Source: Pseudovibrio exalbescens (GTDB lineage: Bacteria > Pseudomonadota > Alphaproteobacteria > Rhizobiales > Stappiaceae). From it: a stretch of 64,000 nt of DNA. Location: the NCBI RefSeq assembly GCF_028737195.1, contig NZ_JAQZAJ010000001.1:558001-622000 (forward strand). The letters are read 5' to 3'. This document shows, piece by piece, positions 5,678 through 41,887 of this stretch. The stretch's first letter is position 1; each line of letters starts with the position of its first letter. The notes under the pieces were generated by a model. The model was not told the origin of the DNA. It saw nothing but the letters and a program-made list of their open reading frames with translations, and did not search any database. The position numbers and the translations under genes are program-made.

Positions 5678-6277
5678 CTAGTGGCGAGCCAAGGCCGCCA
5701 TCGCAGGGTCAAGCTGCGCTTCCAGTTGCTCCCGGCTCAAGCCATCACGCGCCTGCATCGAAATTGCCTGCATCATTCCACTGTAAAAGCGCGCAAGCAC
5801 CGGAATGTCCACTTCCGGCGCAACGTCACCTTCCTCGCGCCCACGCATCAGACGCTTTTCAATTAGGGCGATACTCTCCTGCCGAATGCTTTTTAGGAGC
5901 TCTGAAAGCGGGGCGCTCTCTGGCTGACAACTCAAGACGCCTGTAATCAGCATACAGCCAGCGGAATTGGGCGAACAAACTGCCACGTCAATACTGGCTT
6001 TAAGCATGGCACGGATGCTGTCTTGTGCCGTTTCCCCGGTTTCAAGGGCGCCCAGGAACACCGAAGCCGTTGTTGCCTTGTAAAGGTCGACCGCCTCACG
6101 GAAGGCCGCCTCCTTCGATCCGAAGGCAGCATAAAAACTCGGTGGTGTTATGCCAATCGCCGCTGTTATGTCGTTGAGTTGAGCGGCTTCATACCCCTTT
6201 TCCCAAAACACTTTCATCACGGTACGCAAAGCGTCGTCACGGTCGAAGCTGCGGGGGCGTCCTCTTGATACAGCCAT
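5678..6277 (-). CDS. TetR/AcrR-family transcriptional regulator
   Basis: About 199 residues. The N-terminal helix-turn-helix domain (about residues 1-55) contains DALRTVMKVFWEKGYEA and TPPSFYAAFGSKEAAF, the standard TetR recognition region. The C-terminal half is the ligand domain. I chose the ATG at 6277 (MAVSRG) because AAAGGG lies 5 nt upstream; a GTG at 6283 is the alternative. The gene is divergent from an MFS exporter and a GGAATT-N5-AATTCC palindrome lies between them, so it probably represses itself and the exporter until a ligand binds. The ligand is unknown. Confidence 0.9.
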   Translation of the reverse strand: MAVSRGRPRSFDRDDALRTVMKVFWEKGYEAAQLNDITAAIGITPPSFYAAFGSKEAAFREAVDLYKATTASVFLGALETGETAQDSIRAMLKASIDVAVCSPNSAGCMLITGVLSCQPESAPLSELLKSIRQESIALIEKRLMRGREEGDVAPEVDIPVLARFYSGMMQAISMQARDGLSREQLEAQLDPAMAALARH

Positions 6278-33736: not shown

Positions 33737-34556
33737 TAGCCAGAAGATGCCTATAACGCCATGATATTCCTACTACACATCTGTATAAGTCATGGCTTGT
33801 ACCCGCTGCCCACAGACTACTGCAAGCTGCTGGAGTTCATTGGTTAAAATTAGAGTGTTCGAGCCAGTATCCAAAACACTCGGCAATGCTGCACATCAGA
33901 ACTACCCTAGGACAGATGGCCGGTTATTGTTGCCCGCCAGTTCTGTCACTCGGAGCTAGAAAGTTGCATGGCGTTTTTGCGCTTCAGTGGATGTTCGATC
34001 CGTGATGTGGGTCTCAAACTCTTCTTGCCATGCACTTCGGTTACCCGAACCTCAGGCATCCATGCTGGCTTTAGGTGCGCCCCGCAAAAACCGCAGAGGA
34101 TCGCCTGCCGGATTAAACACTAAACCCTTCCCTGAATTCTACTCAGAGAAACCGTGTAGGAGGCCCTGTCTTCGGCAAACGACTTCTGCCTCACAATTGC
34201 AACTCACTCGCATTTTCAAATAGAAATAAAATAAACCATCCAAACAGAAAATATTCGTAAGTAATAACCGAAACGGCTATCAACAGAGGCCAAACAAATC
34301 AGTAGTTTTTATATTTTACAAATCAAAAAATCCAATAATTTCAATATAGTAGTGTCTATTACTTATATTGCCAAGATCATATATCTCATCGCAATATCCA
34401 GAAGGAGCTAACACTAGGCACGGAGTGAACCAAGAGCCTATCCATGAACCGCATTGCAGCATGTTGGTCTGGGTCTCTTGGTAAAGCCTGTTAGTGAGGG
34501 AGTTTTGGGGTTTTCTGGATTTGGAGCAGGCCCCATCAAAAAAAGGCGAGATCATC
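33737..34556. other. 820-bp gene-poor region with a Fur-like motif and an AT-rich tract
   Basis: I find no convincing gene. TTGCAACTCACTCGCATTTT at 34197-34216 reads on the minus strand as AAAATGCGAGTGAGTTGCAA, which resembles bacterial Fur/iron-response boxes (ATGCGAGTGATT-like). About 34215-34390 is strongly AT-rich. Short frames exist on both strands (for example 33987-34223), but none has a ribosome site and recognisable sequence. It may be the scar of a lost locus, possibly iron-related; that is inference. Confidence 0.35.
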
Positions 34557-35546
34557 ATGTTCAAATCCACTACAAGCAAACTGGCATTGGGGGTCGTTGC
34601 ACTGGTCGTAGTCGCGGGCTATCCAGCTTACCGCTACATCTTCGGGGCAACTGTTGTAGACGTTAACTCTACGGAACAAGCGCAAAAGATTGAAGACTAC
34701 GCAAATCCAGCGGCATTTACGACACCACTTCAACTCGCAAAGATGATGAAGGAAGACGACAAGCTGATCGTCATTGGCGCGTTGAACCCTGCAAAGGGCG
34801 ATACCCCGATCAGTGGTTCCTTTACATTCTGGCGGGGCGATTACTCTGCGCAAAAGAGCGCCTATGACTATGGCGGAATGCGCAATACAGCAGAAGAAAT
34901 GGAAGACCTGCTGAGCCGAATTGGCGCCTCTCCAGACAGCCCGATTGTAGTATATGCAGCCAACAAGCATCATGACGCCGCCCGCCTCTACTGGCAGCTC
35001 GGCCTGCTTGGCCATGAAAACGTAAAGTACCTTGACGGCGGCCTGAACGCATGGCTTGGCGCAGAGCTTCCTGTCGGCAATGCAAATCCAACAGTTGAGG
35101 CGACCGACTACGTGGCCCCAAACAAGAATGAAACCAAGCTTGCCACAATCGAAATGGTACGGAATGCGATTACAGATGATGACTGGGTCATCATCGATAC
35201 CCGCGGCACCGACGAATTTGATGGCACAAGCGTCAAGTCCGGTGCTTATGGTCCGGGCGCCATTCCGGGCGCTGTCCACATCAACTGGACCAAAGCCGTC
35301 AACGAAGACAGTACCTTGAAGACTGCTGCCGAGTTGAAAGCTCTTTACGGTGATCTCATCAAGGGCAAGAAGGTCATTTCCTACTGTCAGTCTGGTGTTC
35401 GGTCTGCCCACACGACAATGGTTCTGGAAGAAGTACTGGGAGCAACAGACGTCTACAACTACGACGGATCCTGGATTGAATGGAGCCACGCTTTTTATGA
35501 GGAAGGCCGCGAAGGCATAGAAATCATGAATGGCGGGAAGAGCTGA
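34557..35546 (+). CDS. Membrane-anchored tandem-rhodanese sulfurtransferase
   Basis: A 329-residue protein with an N-terminal hydrophobic segment (about 9-30) that could be a signal anchor or signal peptide, followed by two rhodanese domains. The first (about 55-175) lacks a Cys at the active-site loop (YAANKHHD). The second (about 195-325) has Cys277 in YCQSGVRSAH, so only it should carry persulfide, as in SseA/TST enzymes. ATG 34557 is chosen because AAAGGCGAG lies just upstream and it gives the signal-like start. A strong hairpin follows the stop, before the flavoprotein gene. Probably extracytoplasmic; sulfur donor unknown. Confidence 0.88.
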   Translation: MFKSTTSKLALGVVALVVVAGYPAYRYIFGATVVDVNSTEQAQKIEDYANPAAFTTPLQLAKMMKEDDKLIVIGALNPAKGDTPISGSFTFWRGDYSAQKSAYDYGGMRNTAEEMEDLLSRIGASPDSPIVVYAANKHHDAARLYWQLGLLGHENVKYLDGGLNAWLGAELPVGNANPTVEATDYVAPNKNETKLATIEMVRNAITDDDWVIIDTRGTDEFDGTSVKSGAYGPGAIPGAVHINWTKAVNEDSTLKTAAELKALYGDLIKGKKVISYCQSGVRSAHTTMVLEEVLGATDVYNYDGSWIEWSHAFYEEGREGIEIMNGGKS

Positions 35547-35558
35547 TCCCAAGAACAG

Positions 35559-35586
35559 GGGCATCTCTAACGAAGAGATGCCCTTT
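35559..35586 (+). terminator. Hairpin between rhodanese and flavoprotein genes
   Basis: GGGCATCTCT/AGAGATGCCC ten-pair stem with a 5-nt loop and then TTTCCT. It ends 27 bp before the next start. The T-run is short, so it may only attenuate read-through. Confidence 0.6.
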
Positions 35587-35612
35587 CCTCCTCATTCAAG
35601 GGAACGGTAGAA

Positions 35613-37406
35613 ATGAAACACGTCAACTTCAGTCAGCCTCTTTATGACACGGCTCAAGAGATCGTGGACGGCTGCATGGGTGATGCAGCTCCCGCCTGCC
35701 AGAGCGCATGCCCTATGCACACTGACGTGAAACAGTATGTGAAACTGGCCGCCGAGGGCGAATACCAGCAAGCTGTCGACGTCATCAGACAAAAGATTTT
35801 CATGCCGCAGGTGCTTGGCCGCATTTGCGCGCATCCTTGCGAGGCTGCGTGCCGTCGCAATGAAGAGTTCTCGCAGCCGATCAGCGTTGCCGCGATCAAG
35901 CGATTTGTTGCTGAAAAAGCGGACAAGAAAGAGAACTGGAACCTTGCTCAAGCTCCAGCAACGGGCAAAAAGGTTGCTGTTGTAGGTGCCGGACCGGCGG
36001 GCGCACAGGCCGCTGTTGAGCTGCGCCGTCAAGGCCATGCCGTGACCATCTTCGAAAAACTCAAGGTGTTTGGCGGTATGATGCGCGTGGGCATTCCTGA
36101 GTACCGCCTGCCGCGTGATGTGATCGACTTCGAATATGGCTATCTGGACATGATGGGCGTTGAGGTGAAGTTTGGCGTTGAGGTTGGCAAAGACATCACC
36201 TTCGATGAACTGCGCAGCGACCATGACGCGGTCATTCTGGCTCATGGTGCCCATGTGGGCTCCATCATCCCGATCAAAGGTCACGAGGCCGAGGGCGTCT
36301 ATTCGGCCGTTGAGTACCTCAAGGAAATCTCCGAGACACGGGCGTTCCCGCGCGCAGGCAAGCGGATCCTCGTCATTGGCGGTGGCGACGTTGCCATGGA
36401 CTGCGCCCGCTCCTCTTGGCGCATTGGTGCCGATGAGGTTCATCAGTGTTCTTTGGAGGAAATGGAGGCCCTGCCCGCCAGTCAGGTTGAAATTGACGAG
36501 GCAATGGAAGAACGCGTTGCTTTCAACGCTGGTTGGGGGCCGAAGGAAATCCTTGTTGAAGATGGCAAGGTGGTCGGCGTGGTTCTTCAAAAGGTGTTGA
36601 GCATCTTTGATGGAGACGGAAATTTCTCACCGGCTTACAGCGATGAAACCCGAGAGGTAGCTGTAGATACAGTGATCTTCGCAACCGGACAGGTTGTCGC
36701 CGATATTACTGACGGTGCGCTGGAACAAGGACGCGGTGGCCGCTATGTGGTGAACAAGGATACCCTTGCCACATCCCTGCCAGATGTTTTCGTTGCCGGC
36801 GATGCCTCTGGCGGTGCCATTGTGGTTGAAGCCATGGCACTTGGCCGCAAAGCTGCCCTCAGCATCGAACGCTTGTTTACTGAACGCGCTTTGGAGGCGG
36901 ATCGGAACCTTGAAGAGGAAGGCGCCTACAAGACCCGCCTTGATGTTCCTCTGCCGGAAGGTACCGTTGACACGCCGCGCATTCACCACAACACCCGTCC
37001 GGCCGAAGAACGCAAGCGGGACTTCATTCAGGTAGATTTGGGGCTCACCGAAGAGCAGGTCACGAGCGAAGGGGATCGCTGCCTCCAGTGTGAATGCAAG
37101 CTCTGCATGAATGAGTGCGTGATGATGAACGATTTTGGCGATTGCCCAAAATCTCTGTTCAGCGACTTCATCGAGAAAAAAGAGATGGAGCCGTTGCTGG
37201 CATACTCATGCAACGCATGCGATCAGTGTACGATTGTTTGCCCAAAGGACTTCCCGATGAAGAGCATCTTCATGGGAGCCCGCGCAGACTTCGTGAAAGC
37301 CAACAATGGCCACTCGCCAATTCCGGGCCACAAGGCCATCGAGATGCACCAGAAACTTGGTTTTTCTCGGATCTTCACAATGGCAAAGAAAGCAGTGGGG
37401 CGGTAA
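35613..37406 (+). CDS. GltD-like Fe-S flavoprotein with C-terminal ferredoxin-like domain
   Basis: A 597-residue pyridine-nucleotide-dependent oxidoreductase. The N-terminal region carries two Cys groups (Cys21/29/33 and Cys72/76/80) like the Fe-S domain of glutamate synthase small subunit. An FAD Rossmann motif GAGPAG is at 125-130 and an NADPH motif VIGGGDVAMD at 254-263. The C-terminus (about 490-545) has two further Cys clusters, QCECKLCMNEC and CNACDQCTIVCPKD, as in bis-[4Fe-4S] ferredoxins. No gltB lies nearby, so glutamate synthesis is unlikely. It probably passes electrons from NAD(P)H through Fe-S centres to the CCG-domain protein encoded 2 bp downstream; that is inference from coupling. 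AAGGGA precedes the ATG. Confidence 0.88.
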   Translation: MKHVNFSQPLYDTAQEIVDGCMGDAAPACQSACPMHTDVKQYVKLAAEGEYQQAVDVIRQKIFMPQVLGRICAHPCEAACRRNEEFSQPISVAAIKRFVAEKADKKENWNLAQAPATGKKVAVVGAGPAGAQAAVELRRQGHAVTIFEKLKVFGGMMRVGIPEYRLPRDVIDFEYGYLDMMGVEVKFGVEVGKDITFDELRSDHDAVILAHGAHVGSIIPIKGHEAEGVYSAVEYLKEISETRAFPRAGKRILVIGGGDVAMDCARSSWRIGADEVHQCSLEEMEALPASQVEIDEAMEERVAFNAGWGPKEILVEDGKVVGVVLQKVLSIFDGDGNFSPAYSDETREVAVDTVIFATGQVVADITDGALEQGRGGRYVVNKDTLATSLPDVFVAGDASGGAIVVEAMALGRKAALSIERLFTERALEADRNLEEEGAYKTRLDVPLPEGTVDTPRIHHNTRPAEERKRDFIQVDLGLTEEQVTSEGDRCLQCECKLCMNECVMMNDFGDCPKSLFSDFIEKKEMEPLLAYSCNACDQCTIVCPKDFPMKSIFMGARADFVKANNGHSPIPGHKAIEMHQKLGFSRIFTMAKKAVGR

Positions 37407-37408
37407 CG

Positions 37409-38179
37409 ATGACAAACAAGATTTTCATGCCGGGCTGCAGCCTGCCCTCTTACAATCCAGAGGCCGTCTCCAAAACAGCCGCCTATCTGAAGTCCGTCTA
37501 CCCAGACATGGGTGCCGTGCAAAAGTGCTGCGGCAAGCCAACGGCGGCAATTGGTCAAACAGAGAAGTTCAAGGAACGCTTCGCTGACCTGCAGAAGGAT
37601 TTCGACAAGGTCGAAGCAGAAGAAGTGATTGTGGCCTGCCAGAGCTGCTTTGGCATGATCACGAAGAACGCCAGCGGCCAAAAGCCGGTGTCTCTCTGGG
37701 CGCTGCTGCCGCAGATCGGCCTGCCGCCTGAGCTGGTAGGAAAAGCAAAGAATAGTGACGTGACTTTCACCATTCACGATTCCTGCTCCACCCGTTTTGA
37801 AACCGAGCTTCAGGAAGGTATTCGCTGGGTCCTCAAGGAACTTGGCTACAAGGTCGTGGAACCCAAACACACGCGCGAGAATGCCCGTTGCTGCGGCTTT
37901 GGCGGCATGGTTGTTCCGGCGAATCCCGATCTTGCAGATCGCGTCATTAAACGCCGTGTAGAAGAGTTTGAAACCGACTACGTGGTGGTTTACTGCGCGG
38001 CCTGCCGTGCCTCCATGATGGGCATTGGGACGAAGTCCTGGCACATTCTGGACCTTCTGTGGGGGCCTGTGGTGATGCAAGGCGACGAGCCGCCTGCCAA
38101 CGTACTGGCCAGCCCCGTCAAATCCTGGATGAACCGATATCGCAGCAAGGTTGGCCTCAACCGCTGCATGGCTTGCTAA
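37409..38179 (+). CDS. CCG-domain (HdrB/GlpC-like) iron-sulfur protein
   Basis: A 256-residue protein with two copies of the Cys-rich CCG domain found in heterodisulfide reductase HdrB, GlpC and LutA. First copy: Cys10, Cys40-Cys41 (KCCGKP), Cys77-x-x-Cys80. Second copy: Cys126, Cys161-Cys162 (RCCGFGG), Cys196-x-x-Cys199. All ten Cys are present, so both clusters could form; in HdrB these domains hold non-cubane [4Fe-4S] clusters that cleave disulfides. The start at 37409, 2 bp after the flavoprotein stop, indicates a coupled pair. Substrate unknown; a disulfide, persulfide or quinone is possible. Confidence 0.87.
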   Translation: MTNKIFMPGCSLPSYNPEAVSKTAAYLKSVYPDMGAVQKCCGKPTAAIGQTEKFKERFADLQKDFDKVEAEEVIVACQSCFGMITKNASGQKPVSLWALLPQIGLPPELVGKAKNSDVTFTIHDSCSTRFETELQEGIRWVLKELGYKVVEPKHTRENARCCGFGGMVVPANPDLADRVIKRRVEEFETDYVVVYCAACRASMMGIGTKSWHILDLLWGPVVMQGDEPPANVLASPVKSWMNRYRSKVGLNRCMAC

Positions 38180-38282
38180 GCCAAGTGATAACCTGAGCGC
38201 CCGTGGGGAGGAAATGGGCGCTCTGGTTGCTTGAACCAACGCCTTTGGGCCAACTCTACTAATAAATTGGAAAGATAGGCCA

Positions 38283-38960
38283 ATGAAATATGTCTATATC
38301 GTCATTGCCGCAATTGTTGTCGCCGCGCTGATCTACGCTGCCAAGCAGACGGGAATGCTGGCACTTCTCACTGATGTACAAGGACTACAGGCCTGGATCT
38401 CCAGCTTTGGTGCCTGGAGCTACATCGTCTTTTTCCTGGCCTTTATCGCAGCCTGCGTGTTCATGCTGCCGGGAAGCGCCTTCACAATTGTCGCGGGTAT
38501 CGCATTCGGGCCCATCATTGGAGCCATCATCTCGCTTCTGGCTGCAACCGCCGGCGCAACCGCCGCGTTCATCGTTTCACGCTTTCTGGCGCGTGGTCTC
38601 ATCCTTGACAAGTTCGGCTCCAACCCGATTTTCAAGAAAATTGACGACGGCGTGAAAGAAAATGGCATGAGCTTCCTCATCCTGACCCGTCTTGTACCGG
38701 TGTTTCCTTTCAGCTTGCAGAACTATGCCTACGGCCTCACAGGTATCAGTTTTTGGACCTATGTGCTTGTATCGCTGGTGACCATGGCCCCTGGCGCCTT
38801 CATCTTCGCCTACATGGCAGGTGACATTGCCACCAACGGCGTCTCTGTGATGTTGCTGGTGAAGTTCGCAGTGGCTGGGCTCATTCTGTTCGGCGTGTCT
38901 CTCATTCCAAAATACATCGCCAAAAAACGTGGCATCGACCTTCAGGCACTCTCCAAGTAG
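38283..38960 (+). CDS. TVP38/TMEM64 (VTT-domain) inner-membrane protein
   Basis: A 225-residue integral membrane protein with a VTT/SNARE-associated domain. Characteristic segments are CVFMLPGSAFTIVAGIAFGP (about 60-79) and LTRLVPVFPFSLQNYAYGLTG (about 137-157). It lies 103 bp after the CCG gene with GGAAAGA before the ATG and ends in a terminator, so it probably closes the redox operon. TVP38 proteins are often beside redox genes; here it may anchor the flavoprotein/CCG pair at the membrane. That is inference. Confidence 0.88.
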   Translation: MKYVYIVIAAIVVAALIYAAKQTGMLALLTDVQGLQAWISSFGAWSYIVFFLAFIAACVFMLPGSAFTIVAGIAFGPIIGAIISLLAATAGATAAFIVSRFLARGLILDKFGSNPIFKKIDDGVKENGMSFLILTRLVPVFPFSLQNYAYGLTGISFWTYVLVSLVTMAPGAFIFAYMAGDIATNGVSVMLLVKFAVAGLILFGVSLIPKYIAKKRGIDLQALSK

Positions 38961-39076: not shown

Positions 39077-39153
39077 TGGCGACCCCTGCAGGATTCGAAC
39101 CTGCGACCATCGGCTTAGAAGGCCGGTGCTCTATCCAGCTGAGCTAAGGGGCC
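39077..39153 (-). tRNA. tRNA-Arg(TCT)
   Basis: A 77-nt cloverleaf with CCA encoded. Acceptor stem GGCCCCT/AGGGGTC has one G-T pair at 2:71. The anticodon loop is CTTCTAA (anticodon TCT). The top pair of the anticodon stem is a C-A mismatch (27:43). The T-arm is GCAGG-TTCGAAT-CCTGC. Confidence 0.95.
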
Positions 39154-41616: not shown

Positions 41617-41693
<77 letters not shown>

Positions 41694-41713
41694 ACTACAG
41701 AGATTTCAAGAAA

Positions 41714-41790
<77 letters not shown>

Positions 41791-41810
41791 ACAGCAGAGA
41801 TTTGAAGAAG

Positions 41811-41887
<77 letters not shown>

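Follow-up and report, generated by a model that had tools for sequence, protein, structure and literature searches.

Gene layout and protein features

We examined a four-gene module of Pseudovibrio exalbescens that lies within a 64,000-nucleotide stretch of contig NZ_JAQZAJ010000001.1 (positions 558,001 to 622,000), referred to below as the window. Judged from its gene content and relatives, the module probably uses the reducing power of the cell to break sulfur-sulfur (S-S) bonds. Between positions 34557 and 38960, open reading frames (ORFs) and domain profiles bear out the gene order of an earlier reading made from the letters alone (the original prediction): a tandem rhodanese, an iron-sulfur (Fe-S) flavoprotein, a double-CCG protein and a TVP38/VTT membrane protein, all with intact frames and all on the plus strand. 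Open frames on the minus strand over the module (34536-35564, 35592-36590 and 37223-38239; 332-342 amino acids (aa)) were taken as mechanical shadows of the coding strand.

The rhodanese gene (34557..35546) encodes two stretches that match PF00581 (93 bits). A mechanical ORF list starts the gene at a GTG at 34494; the ATG at 34557 agrees with the Vibrio starts. The rhodanese domains support the proposed sulfurtransferase, and the single N-terminal hydrophobic segment (residues 6-29) suggests that the protein is either exported, as originally proposed, or anchored in the membrane. The first domain lacks Cys, and the active-site loop of the second reads CQSGVR, with Cys at position 277. Both C277 and R282 are invariant in all 29 sequences compared (25 Vibrionaceae, the window, two Ilyobacter and Cetobacterium). 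The loop thus ends in Arg, as does the CAKGVR loop of yeast RDL2, whose Arg is reported to be required for thiosulfate splitting (PMC8533005).

The flavoprotein (35613..37406) resembles GltD/NfnB in its Fer4_20, FAD and NAD(P) domains, the latter two being Rossmann domains found as Pyr_redox_2, and differs from them in an extra C-terminal 4Fe-4S dicluster ferredoxin domain, in agreement with the predicted GltD-like protein with a ferredoxin tail. It falls below the GltD cut-offs (224.4 against 447.7 bits for TIGR01317; 249.4 against 482.95 bits for TIGR01318). Ten C-terminal Cys are invariant in 28/28 aligned sequences, and six N-terminal Cys are kept in 27/28, the exception being a locus with a broken frame (L069). 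A further difference from GltD/NfnB is the lack of the YRR motif that all five aligned PDB relatives have in the second nucleotide-binding motif; its place is taken by CSLE in the window and in the Vibrio rows shown, by CLE in Ilyobacter and by PLE in Cetobacterium. From the missing YRR, together with general rules of nucleotide specificity, we infer that the flavoprotein prefers NADH over NADPH. The original prediction had noted that no gltB lies nearby and allowed that the flavoprotein might act with a distant one. The first point is right locally, and the second was ruled out: the 1580-aa gltB-like ORF of this genome, on another contig (C24), has its own adjacent gltD, which is 35% identical to the flavoprotein.

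The CCG gene (37409..38179) follows after 2 nt, and in V. harveyi the two frames overlap by 4 nt; translational coupling, asserted earlier, is plausible from this adjacency. Its product matches PF02754 in two stretches (67 bits) and resembles HdrB in having two CCG motifs with all ten predicted Cys (C10-X29-C40C41-X35-C77xxC80 and C126-X34-C161C162-X33-C196xxC199). Even at identities as low as about 30%, these are invariant in 29/29 sequences (the window, 25 Vibrionaceae, Ilyobacter, Cetobacterium and Acetoanaerobium). A five-member profile found the iron-sulfur-binding reductase 9ojn in the PDB at 6e-11 and matched HdrB weakly (8rvv, 8rvu and 9sfi; whole-sequence E 0.0003-0.001, with no single stretch passing). 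Unlike HdrB, the protein has neither an HdrA, as had been predicted, nor an HdrC recognised among the window ORFs nearby; its electrons would come from the GltD-like flavoprotein instead. The last gene (38283..38960) encodes a TVP38/VTT protein of the DedA superfamily (PF09335 VTT_dom, 92 bits), for which no PDB relative was found by sequence.

Linkage in other genomes

We searched 197 Vibrionaceae genomes for the CCG protein and found it in 22 at E <= 1e-20; three further named Vibrio bring the set to 25 loci. Rhodanese, flavoprotein, CCG and TVP38 genes stand in the same order in every one of these loci, so that the co-occurrence expected of a system was found, and the genes are not unlinked elsewhere. 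The set is also linked in Ilyobacter and Cetobacterium. On the 3' side of TVP38, YnjC-, YnjD- and YnjF-like genes follow in 25/25 Vibrionaceae, preceded by a YnjB-like gene in 23/25; the YnjF-like gene of L079 was located by tblastn, and the L069 locus has split frames. In Vibrio, the four core genes thus open an eight-gene operon that continues with YnjB-C-D-F homologues, and the window proteins are 61% (rhodanese), 74% (flavoprotein), 80% (CCG) and 72% (TVP38) identical to those of V. harveyi. The claim that the module has no known partner therefore holds for the window and fails for its relatives, which keep extra partners. The gene set, its order and the fusions described below, like the cluster and active-site residues, the promoter boxes and the sensor kinship, are read directly from sequence.

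Fusions bring the parts closer still. In Ilyobacter, flavoprotein and CCG form one protein and the rhodanese is fused to a VTT domain; Cetobacterium keeps a fused flavoprotein-CCG protein, rhodanese, TVP38 and transporter together. Genes adjoining the Cetobacterium operon (L010 2360-5964) encode AhpC, a C-GCAxxG-C-C (seleno)protein, a methyltransferase and a pyridine nucleotide-disulfide oxidoreductase that carries a thioredoxin domain. A genome of the same family (G020) encodes a fusion some 800 aa long, the CCG part of which is 34-35% identical (L027 2983-6380; L007). This fusion adjoins a radical-SAM protein with an HMPTM zinc ribbon and a MobA-like/HD protein, which looks like another use of the same fusion. 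In Acetoanaerobium, a CCG relative (30%) occurs as a ferredoxin-CCG protein together with YnjBCD-, YnjF- and YdjY-like genes and two VTT proteins. One locus (L009) reaches the edge of its record, and its missing TVP38 was left out of the counts.

Elsewhere, the searches of phylum and class samples returned only the window genome itself at E 1e-20 (1/398 and 1/369), phage records gave no match, and plasmid records gave two weak matches (H5 Prevotella and H6 Niallia). A YnjB/YnjC-like pair was also seen beside an apparent radical-SAM protein and two transferase-like genes (L141 5062-10006), which we take to be rSAM/selenodomain-associated. With this conservation in view, the four genes very probably form a functional unit.

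Relation to the E. coli ydj-ynj cluster

In E. coli K-12, ydjX-ydjY-ydjZ-ynjA-ynjB-ynjC-ynjD-ynjE form a cluster, with ynjF on the other strand. The window TVP38 is 41% identical to YdjX, and the rhodanese is 29% (window) or 27% (V. harveyi) identical to YnjE. The remaining V. harveyi products are similarly related: substrate-binding protein to YnjB (46%; 547 bits against a cut-off of 203 for NF008633), permease to YnjC (31%), ATPase to YnjD (47%) and CDP-alcohol transferase to YnjF (64%). Unlike the module, the E. coli cluster includes YdjY and YnjA, and its annotation shows neither a flavoprotein nor a CCG gene. These two cluster forms nevertheless look like one family, because the Acetoanaerobium cluster holds both the ferredoxin-CCG protein and a YdjY that shares 50% identity with the E. 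coli protein. The full ydj-ynj-type set is present in 23/25 Vibrionaceae operons; the window neighbourhood has only the TVP38 and rhodanese members.

The original prediction knew of no described system with exactly these parts. That statement needs qualifying, as an uncharacterised relative is known as a cluster (E. coli ydjXYZ-ynjABCDEF). By title or start of abstract, none of the matches listed in our literature search describes this operon. The papers found on the E. coli genes assign the cluster no pathway and cover only its regulation and a poor activity of YnjE. FNR is reported to activate E. coli ydjXYZ-ynjABCD and ynjE (PMC3688515), and fusions of DedA proteins to rhodanese and to pyridine nucleotide-disulfide oxidoreductases have already been noted (PMC10127716).

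Among protein models, NF045663 (diclust_near_Sec) comes nearest to the fused flavoprotein-CCG protein and has the same domains in the same order; the Ilyobacter fusion scores 501 against its cut-off of 530 bits. The window and Vibrio differ from it in having two separate genes, and the window proteins score 264.8 and 210.2 bits, below the cut-off. An alternative to sulfur chemistry is that the unit serves to reduce an oxyanion such as selenite or tellurite. Consistent with such chalcogen detoxification, this model is named 'near Sec', the rhodanese scores 60.1 bits and the Ilyobacter fusion 91.6 bits against ExtH, which belongs to the selenite/tellurite operon of Geobacter, the (seleno)protein adjoins the Cetobacterium operon, and a title cited in PMC10127716 links DedA to selenite. 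The ExtH score, however, is below the cut-off of 200 bits (NF040901), the Geobacter cluster is described as including a porin and c-type cytochromes (PMC5877670), unlike the module set, and the Vibrio sensor and promoter box are TtrSR-like, as set out below. We consider this alternative improbable.

Regulation in Vibrionaceae

Divergent from the operon, 25/25 Vibrionaceae loci encode a PhnD-type sensor kinase together with a response regulator; the domains of the pair were scanned in V. harveyi. Matches to the sensing part occur in 43 of 247 genomes of the order, and we fetched 20 of these contexts, labelling neighbours from their N-termini as read. Among the 14 higher-scoring contexts (39-45% identity), a TtrA-sized molybdoenzyme lies beside the sensor in 12 and a TtrB-like gene in two (L159 and L164, labelled 'other' by the script for want of a TtrA frame, but with the TtrB-like gene adjoining the sensor). 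Five of the six lower-scoring contexts (33-37%) have psrA/phsA-like genes beside the sensor; L169 has neither. In a tree of 44 sensors, 24 module sensors form one clade (support 100/100) inside a 38-row clade that also holds 14 TTR-type sensors, and a six-row PHS clade stands apart. The tree was rooted at its midpoint, its program warned of long branches, and L069, with its broken sensor frame, was left out. The sensor and regulator of the Vibrio module score below the TtrS and TtrR equivalog cut-offs (363.2 against 750 bits for NF040750; 210.3 against 290 bits for NF040749).

The TtrR box is given as GTGG-N4-CCAC (PMC11293645), and we found this exact sequence in 25/25 Vibrionaceae intergenic regions, compared with 0.3% of shuffled regions; the region searched for L069 is longer, its sensor frame being broken. 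At a fixed distance of 29 nt from the box, 23/25 regions have an FNR-like site, 20 of them with one mismatch (reached by 3.4% of shuffles) and three with two (31% of shuffles). The module thus resembles TtrSR-TtrBCA in its sensor and its identical box. It differs in that no molybdoenzyme, cytochrome or quinol subunit was recognised in the Vibrio operon, and in that it is predicted to be NADH-linked and partly cytoplasmic.

In these Vibrionaceae, TtrA itself was mostly not found. Among the 25 module-bearing genomes, it is whole in four, in pieces with stops in one, and not found at E 1e-60 in 20. One of the 20 is V. harveyi, which is described as having no ttr orthologues (PMC11293645). Three TTR-context genomes served as positive controls, one being the query's own. 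The broken copy (G909:C4:174587-177665) is a ttrA-like gene in three pieces with stops; the same genome holds the split L069 frames, which may reflect draft quality. Because TtrA was not found, the sensor in those 20 genomes appears to have no TtrA to serve.

In V. parahaemolyticus, a second, uncharacterised two-component system (05905-05910) is reported to be 44% and 47% identical to TtrS and TtrR, and TtrR is reported to bind its promoter and to raise it 7.1-fold in E. coli (PMC11293645). We suspect that 05905-05910 is the module's sensor pair; genome G999 fits in gene order and spacing, with the CCG gene near 1.43 Mb, ttrA near 2.31 Mb, and kinase then regulator on the plus strand.

These boxes also bear on the direction of the reaction. 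CCG proteins in known families work in both directions, and a rhodanese delivers persulfide sulfur, so that the CCG protein could instead oxidise a thiol or persulfide, with the flavoprotein making NAD(P)H, as in sulfur-oxidising Hdr-like systems. The FNR-like and TtrR-like boxes in Vibrio, by contrast, suggest that an oxidised sulfur compound is used under anaerobic conditions. An oxidative role is accordingly unlikely in our view, and reduction the likely direction.

Horizontal transfer and a likely insertion hot spot

The CCG gene was absent from all 15 other genomes of the genus that we searched at E 1e-10 (present in 1/16). Five ordinary window proteins show lower identities to Gammaproteobacteria than the module does: with E. 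coli as a stand-in, SufB, C, D, S and ParE are 59, 60, 30, 48 and 43% identical. The contrast between 61-80% identity to V. harveyi for the module and 30-60% for such proteins, together with absence from the congeners, indicates that the four genes are a horizontally moved unit. In a flavoprotein-CCG tree, from which the short rows L069 and L079 were left out, the window stands beside the Vibrio set, neither clearly in nor out, with Vibrio on one side at weak support (75/84).

A tRNA-Arg(TCT) gene lies on the minus strand at 39077..39153 with its 3' end facing the module. The tRNA and an adjacent 115-aa gene occur in 9/10 congener stretches fetched, and the phosphate transporter that lies beyond the tRNA in the window is present in 16/16 genus genomes. 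All four module genes are absent from the ten stretches, as are matches to the genes on the module side in the window, and the flank of tRNA-Arg is likely to be an insertion hot spot. Insertion through a repeat of the tRNA 3' end was rejected: its first 14-20 bases have no second copy in the window, and the first 18 have no copy with up to three mismatches between 24001 and about 39060. Further along, three tRNA-Pro(TGG) genes stand in tandem at 41617-41887, with a spacing of 97 bases.

The transferred core might be a remnant with little or no function, cut off from importer and sensor. In favour of such a remnant are the single occurrence in 16 genus genomes, the position on the variable side of tRNA-Arg, and the lack of an exact ttrR box upstream. 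The four frames, on the other hand, are intact, with a host-like G+C content (module 0.546, window 0.543), and the module keeps its rhodanese Cys as well as the ten Cys of the CCG protein and the ten at the C terminus of the flavoprotein. We judge a remnant quite improbable. The upstream region (33737..34556) has 45% G+C compared with 54.6% for the module and contains no FNR-like site within two mismatches, and no TtrA was found in the window genome.

Proposed function

We tentatively propose that the four genes make up the redox core of an operon handling sulfane or polythionate sulfur, with an NADH-driven, HdrB-like S-S reductase at its centre. That the module concerns sulfane or polythionate sulfur at all is somewhat more probable than this full scheme. 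Cys277 of the periplasmic rhodanese would accept sulfane sulfur, with thiosulfate or a polythionate as the source, and TVP38 may pass the substrate, or a lipid carrying it, into the membrane or across it. The cytoplasmic flavoprotein would take hydride from NADH and hand on the electrons by way of FAD and its Fe-S clusters. The CCG protein would receive them and, at two HdrB-type cluster sites, reductively cleave an S-S bond, be it that of tetrathionate, of an S-sulfonate or of a persulfide carrier. The same unit in Vibrio includes a YnjF-type CDP-alcohol phosphatidyltransferase and a YnjBCD-type importer, which may help to bring in the sulfur compound, and the operon is predicted to be switched on by the TtrSR-like sensor plus the FNR-like site. 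The window organism has the four-gene core, without a TtrS-like sensor or a linked importer. We infer direction, substrate and the role of TVP38, like the preference for NADH, from these features. The original prediction had sketched a membrane-linked route from NAD(P)H to a disulfide, persulfide or quinone; regulation and rhodanese back the S-S bond circumstantially, and the quinone end point found no support.

The phosphatidyltransferase and TVP38 also allow a lipid-linked reading, in which a phosphatidyl compound produced by YnjF is flipped by TVP38, with flavoprotein-CCG keeping a lipid-borne or membrane thiol reduced. Other subfamilies of the DedA superfamily are described as lipid scramblases or flippases (PMC10127716). 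A CDP-alcohol phosphatidyltransferase is present in 25/25 Vibrionaceae operons (64% to YnjF in V. harveyi); none was recognised among the window ORFs around the module, no search for it having been made elsewhere in the genome. We know of no thiol lipid for such a system, and this reading seems quite unlikely.

Several observations weigh against the proposed sulfur-reducing core. Linkage of the four genes is not universal among distant relatives: tblastn found no rhodanese or TVP38 in 16 kb around the G020 fusion, and the 16.8 kb of Acetoanaerobium contain no rhodanese and the flavoprotein only as its C-terminal ferredoxin part. Within Vibrionaceae, a YnjB-like gene was not found in two of the 25 operons (L063 and L075). 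The profile match between CCG protein and HdrB is weak, and E. coli YnjE is described as poor with thiosulfate, its physiological substrate being unclear (PMC10215317).

The regulatory evidence has counterpoints as well. The 05905-05910 system is reported to have raised transcription of ttrBCA 3.0-fold and of tsdBA 1.4-fold (PMC11293645), so the target of the sensor need not be the module alone. Module sensors carry S94 and P185 (TSPGQ, GPP) in place of the N and F (TNPGQ, GFP) of the TTR-context group, residues that the PHS-context rows shown share with that group; because of these changes, the ligand may be neither tetrathionate nor thiosulfate but a related compound. In the window organism, the best ttrR-like box upstream of the module has two mismatches, and no PhnD-type sensor kinase was found in the genome, which gave only kinase-domain matches and a single weak stretch interrupted by stops. 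The sole YnjB-family protein of this genome that scores over the cut-off is distant (31%), is common to 12/16 genus genomes and adjoins no TVP38 or rhodanese, and was rejected as part of the module.

The evidence ties four enigmatic families (VTT/DedA, YnjE-type rhodanese, YnjBCD/F and flavoprotein-CCG) to one regulatory signal class, which makes the role of the ydj-ynj type cluster directly testable with a defined set of inducers. If the proposed sulfur-reducing function is right, it adds an HdrB-type, molybdenum-free use of sulfur oxyanions in marine and gut bacteria.

A wider extension of the proposed core is doubtful: a dedicated YnjBCD importer, periplasmic rhodanese, VTT protein, cytoplasmic flavoprotein-HdrB complex and TtrSR-derived sensor may together provide a molybdenum-free, NADH-linked route for the import and reduction of polythionates or organic S-sulfonates. 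The E. coli ydj-ynj cluster would then be explained as a relative of that route, and Vibrio species without TtrA would have a way of their own to use tetrathionate-type sulfur.

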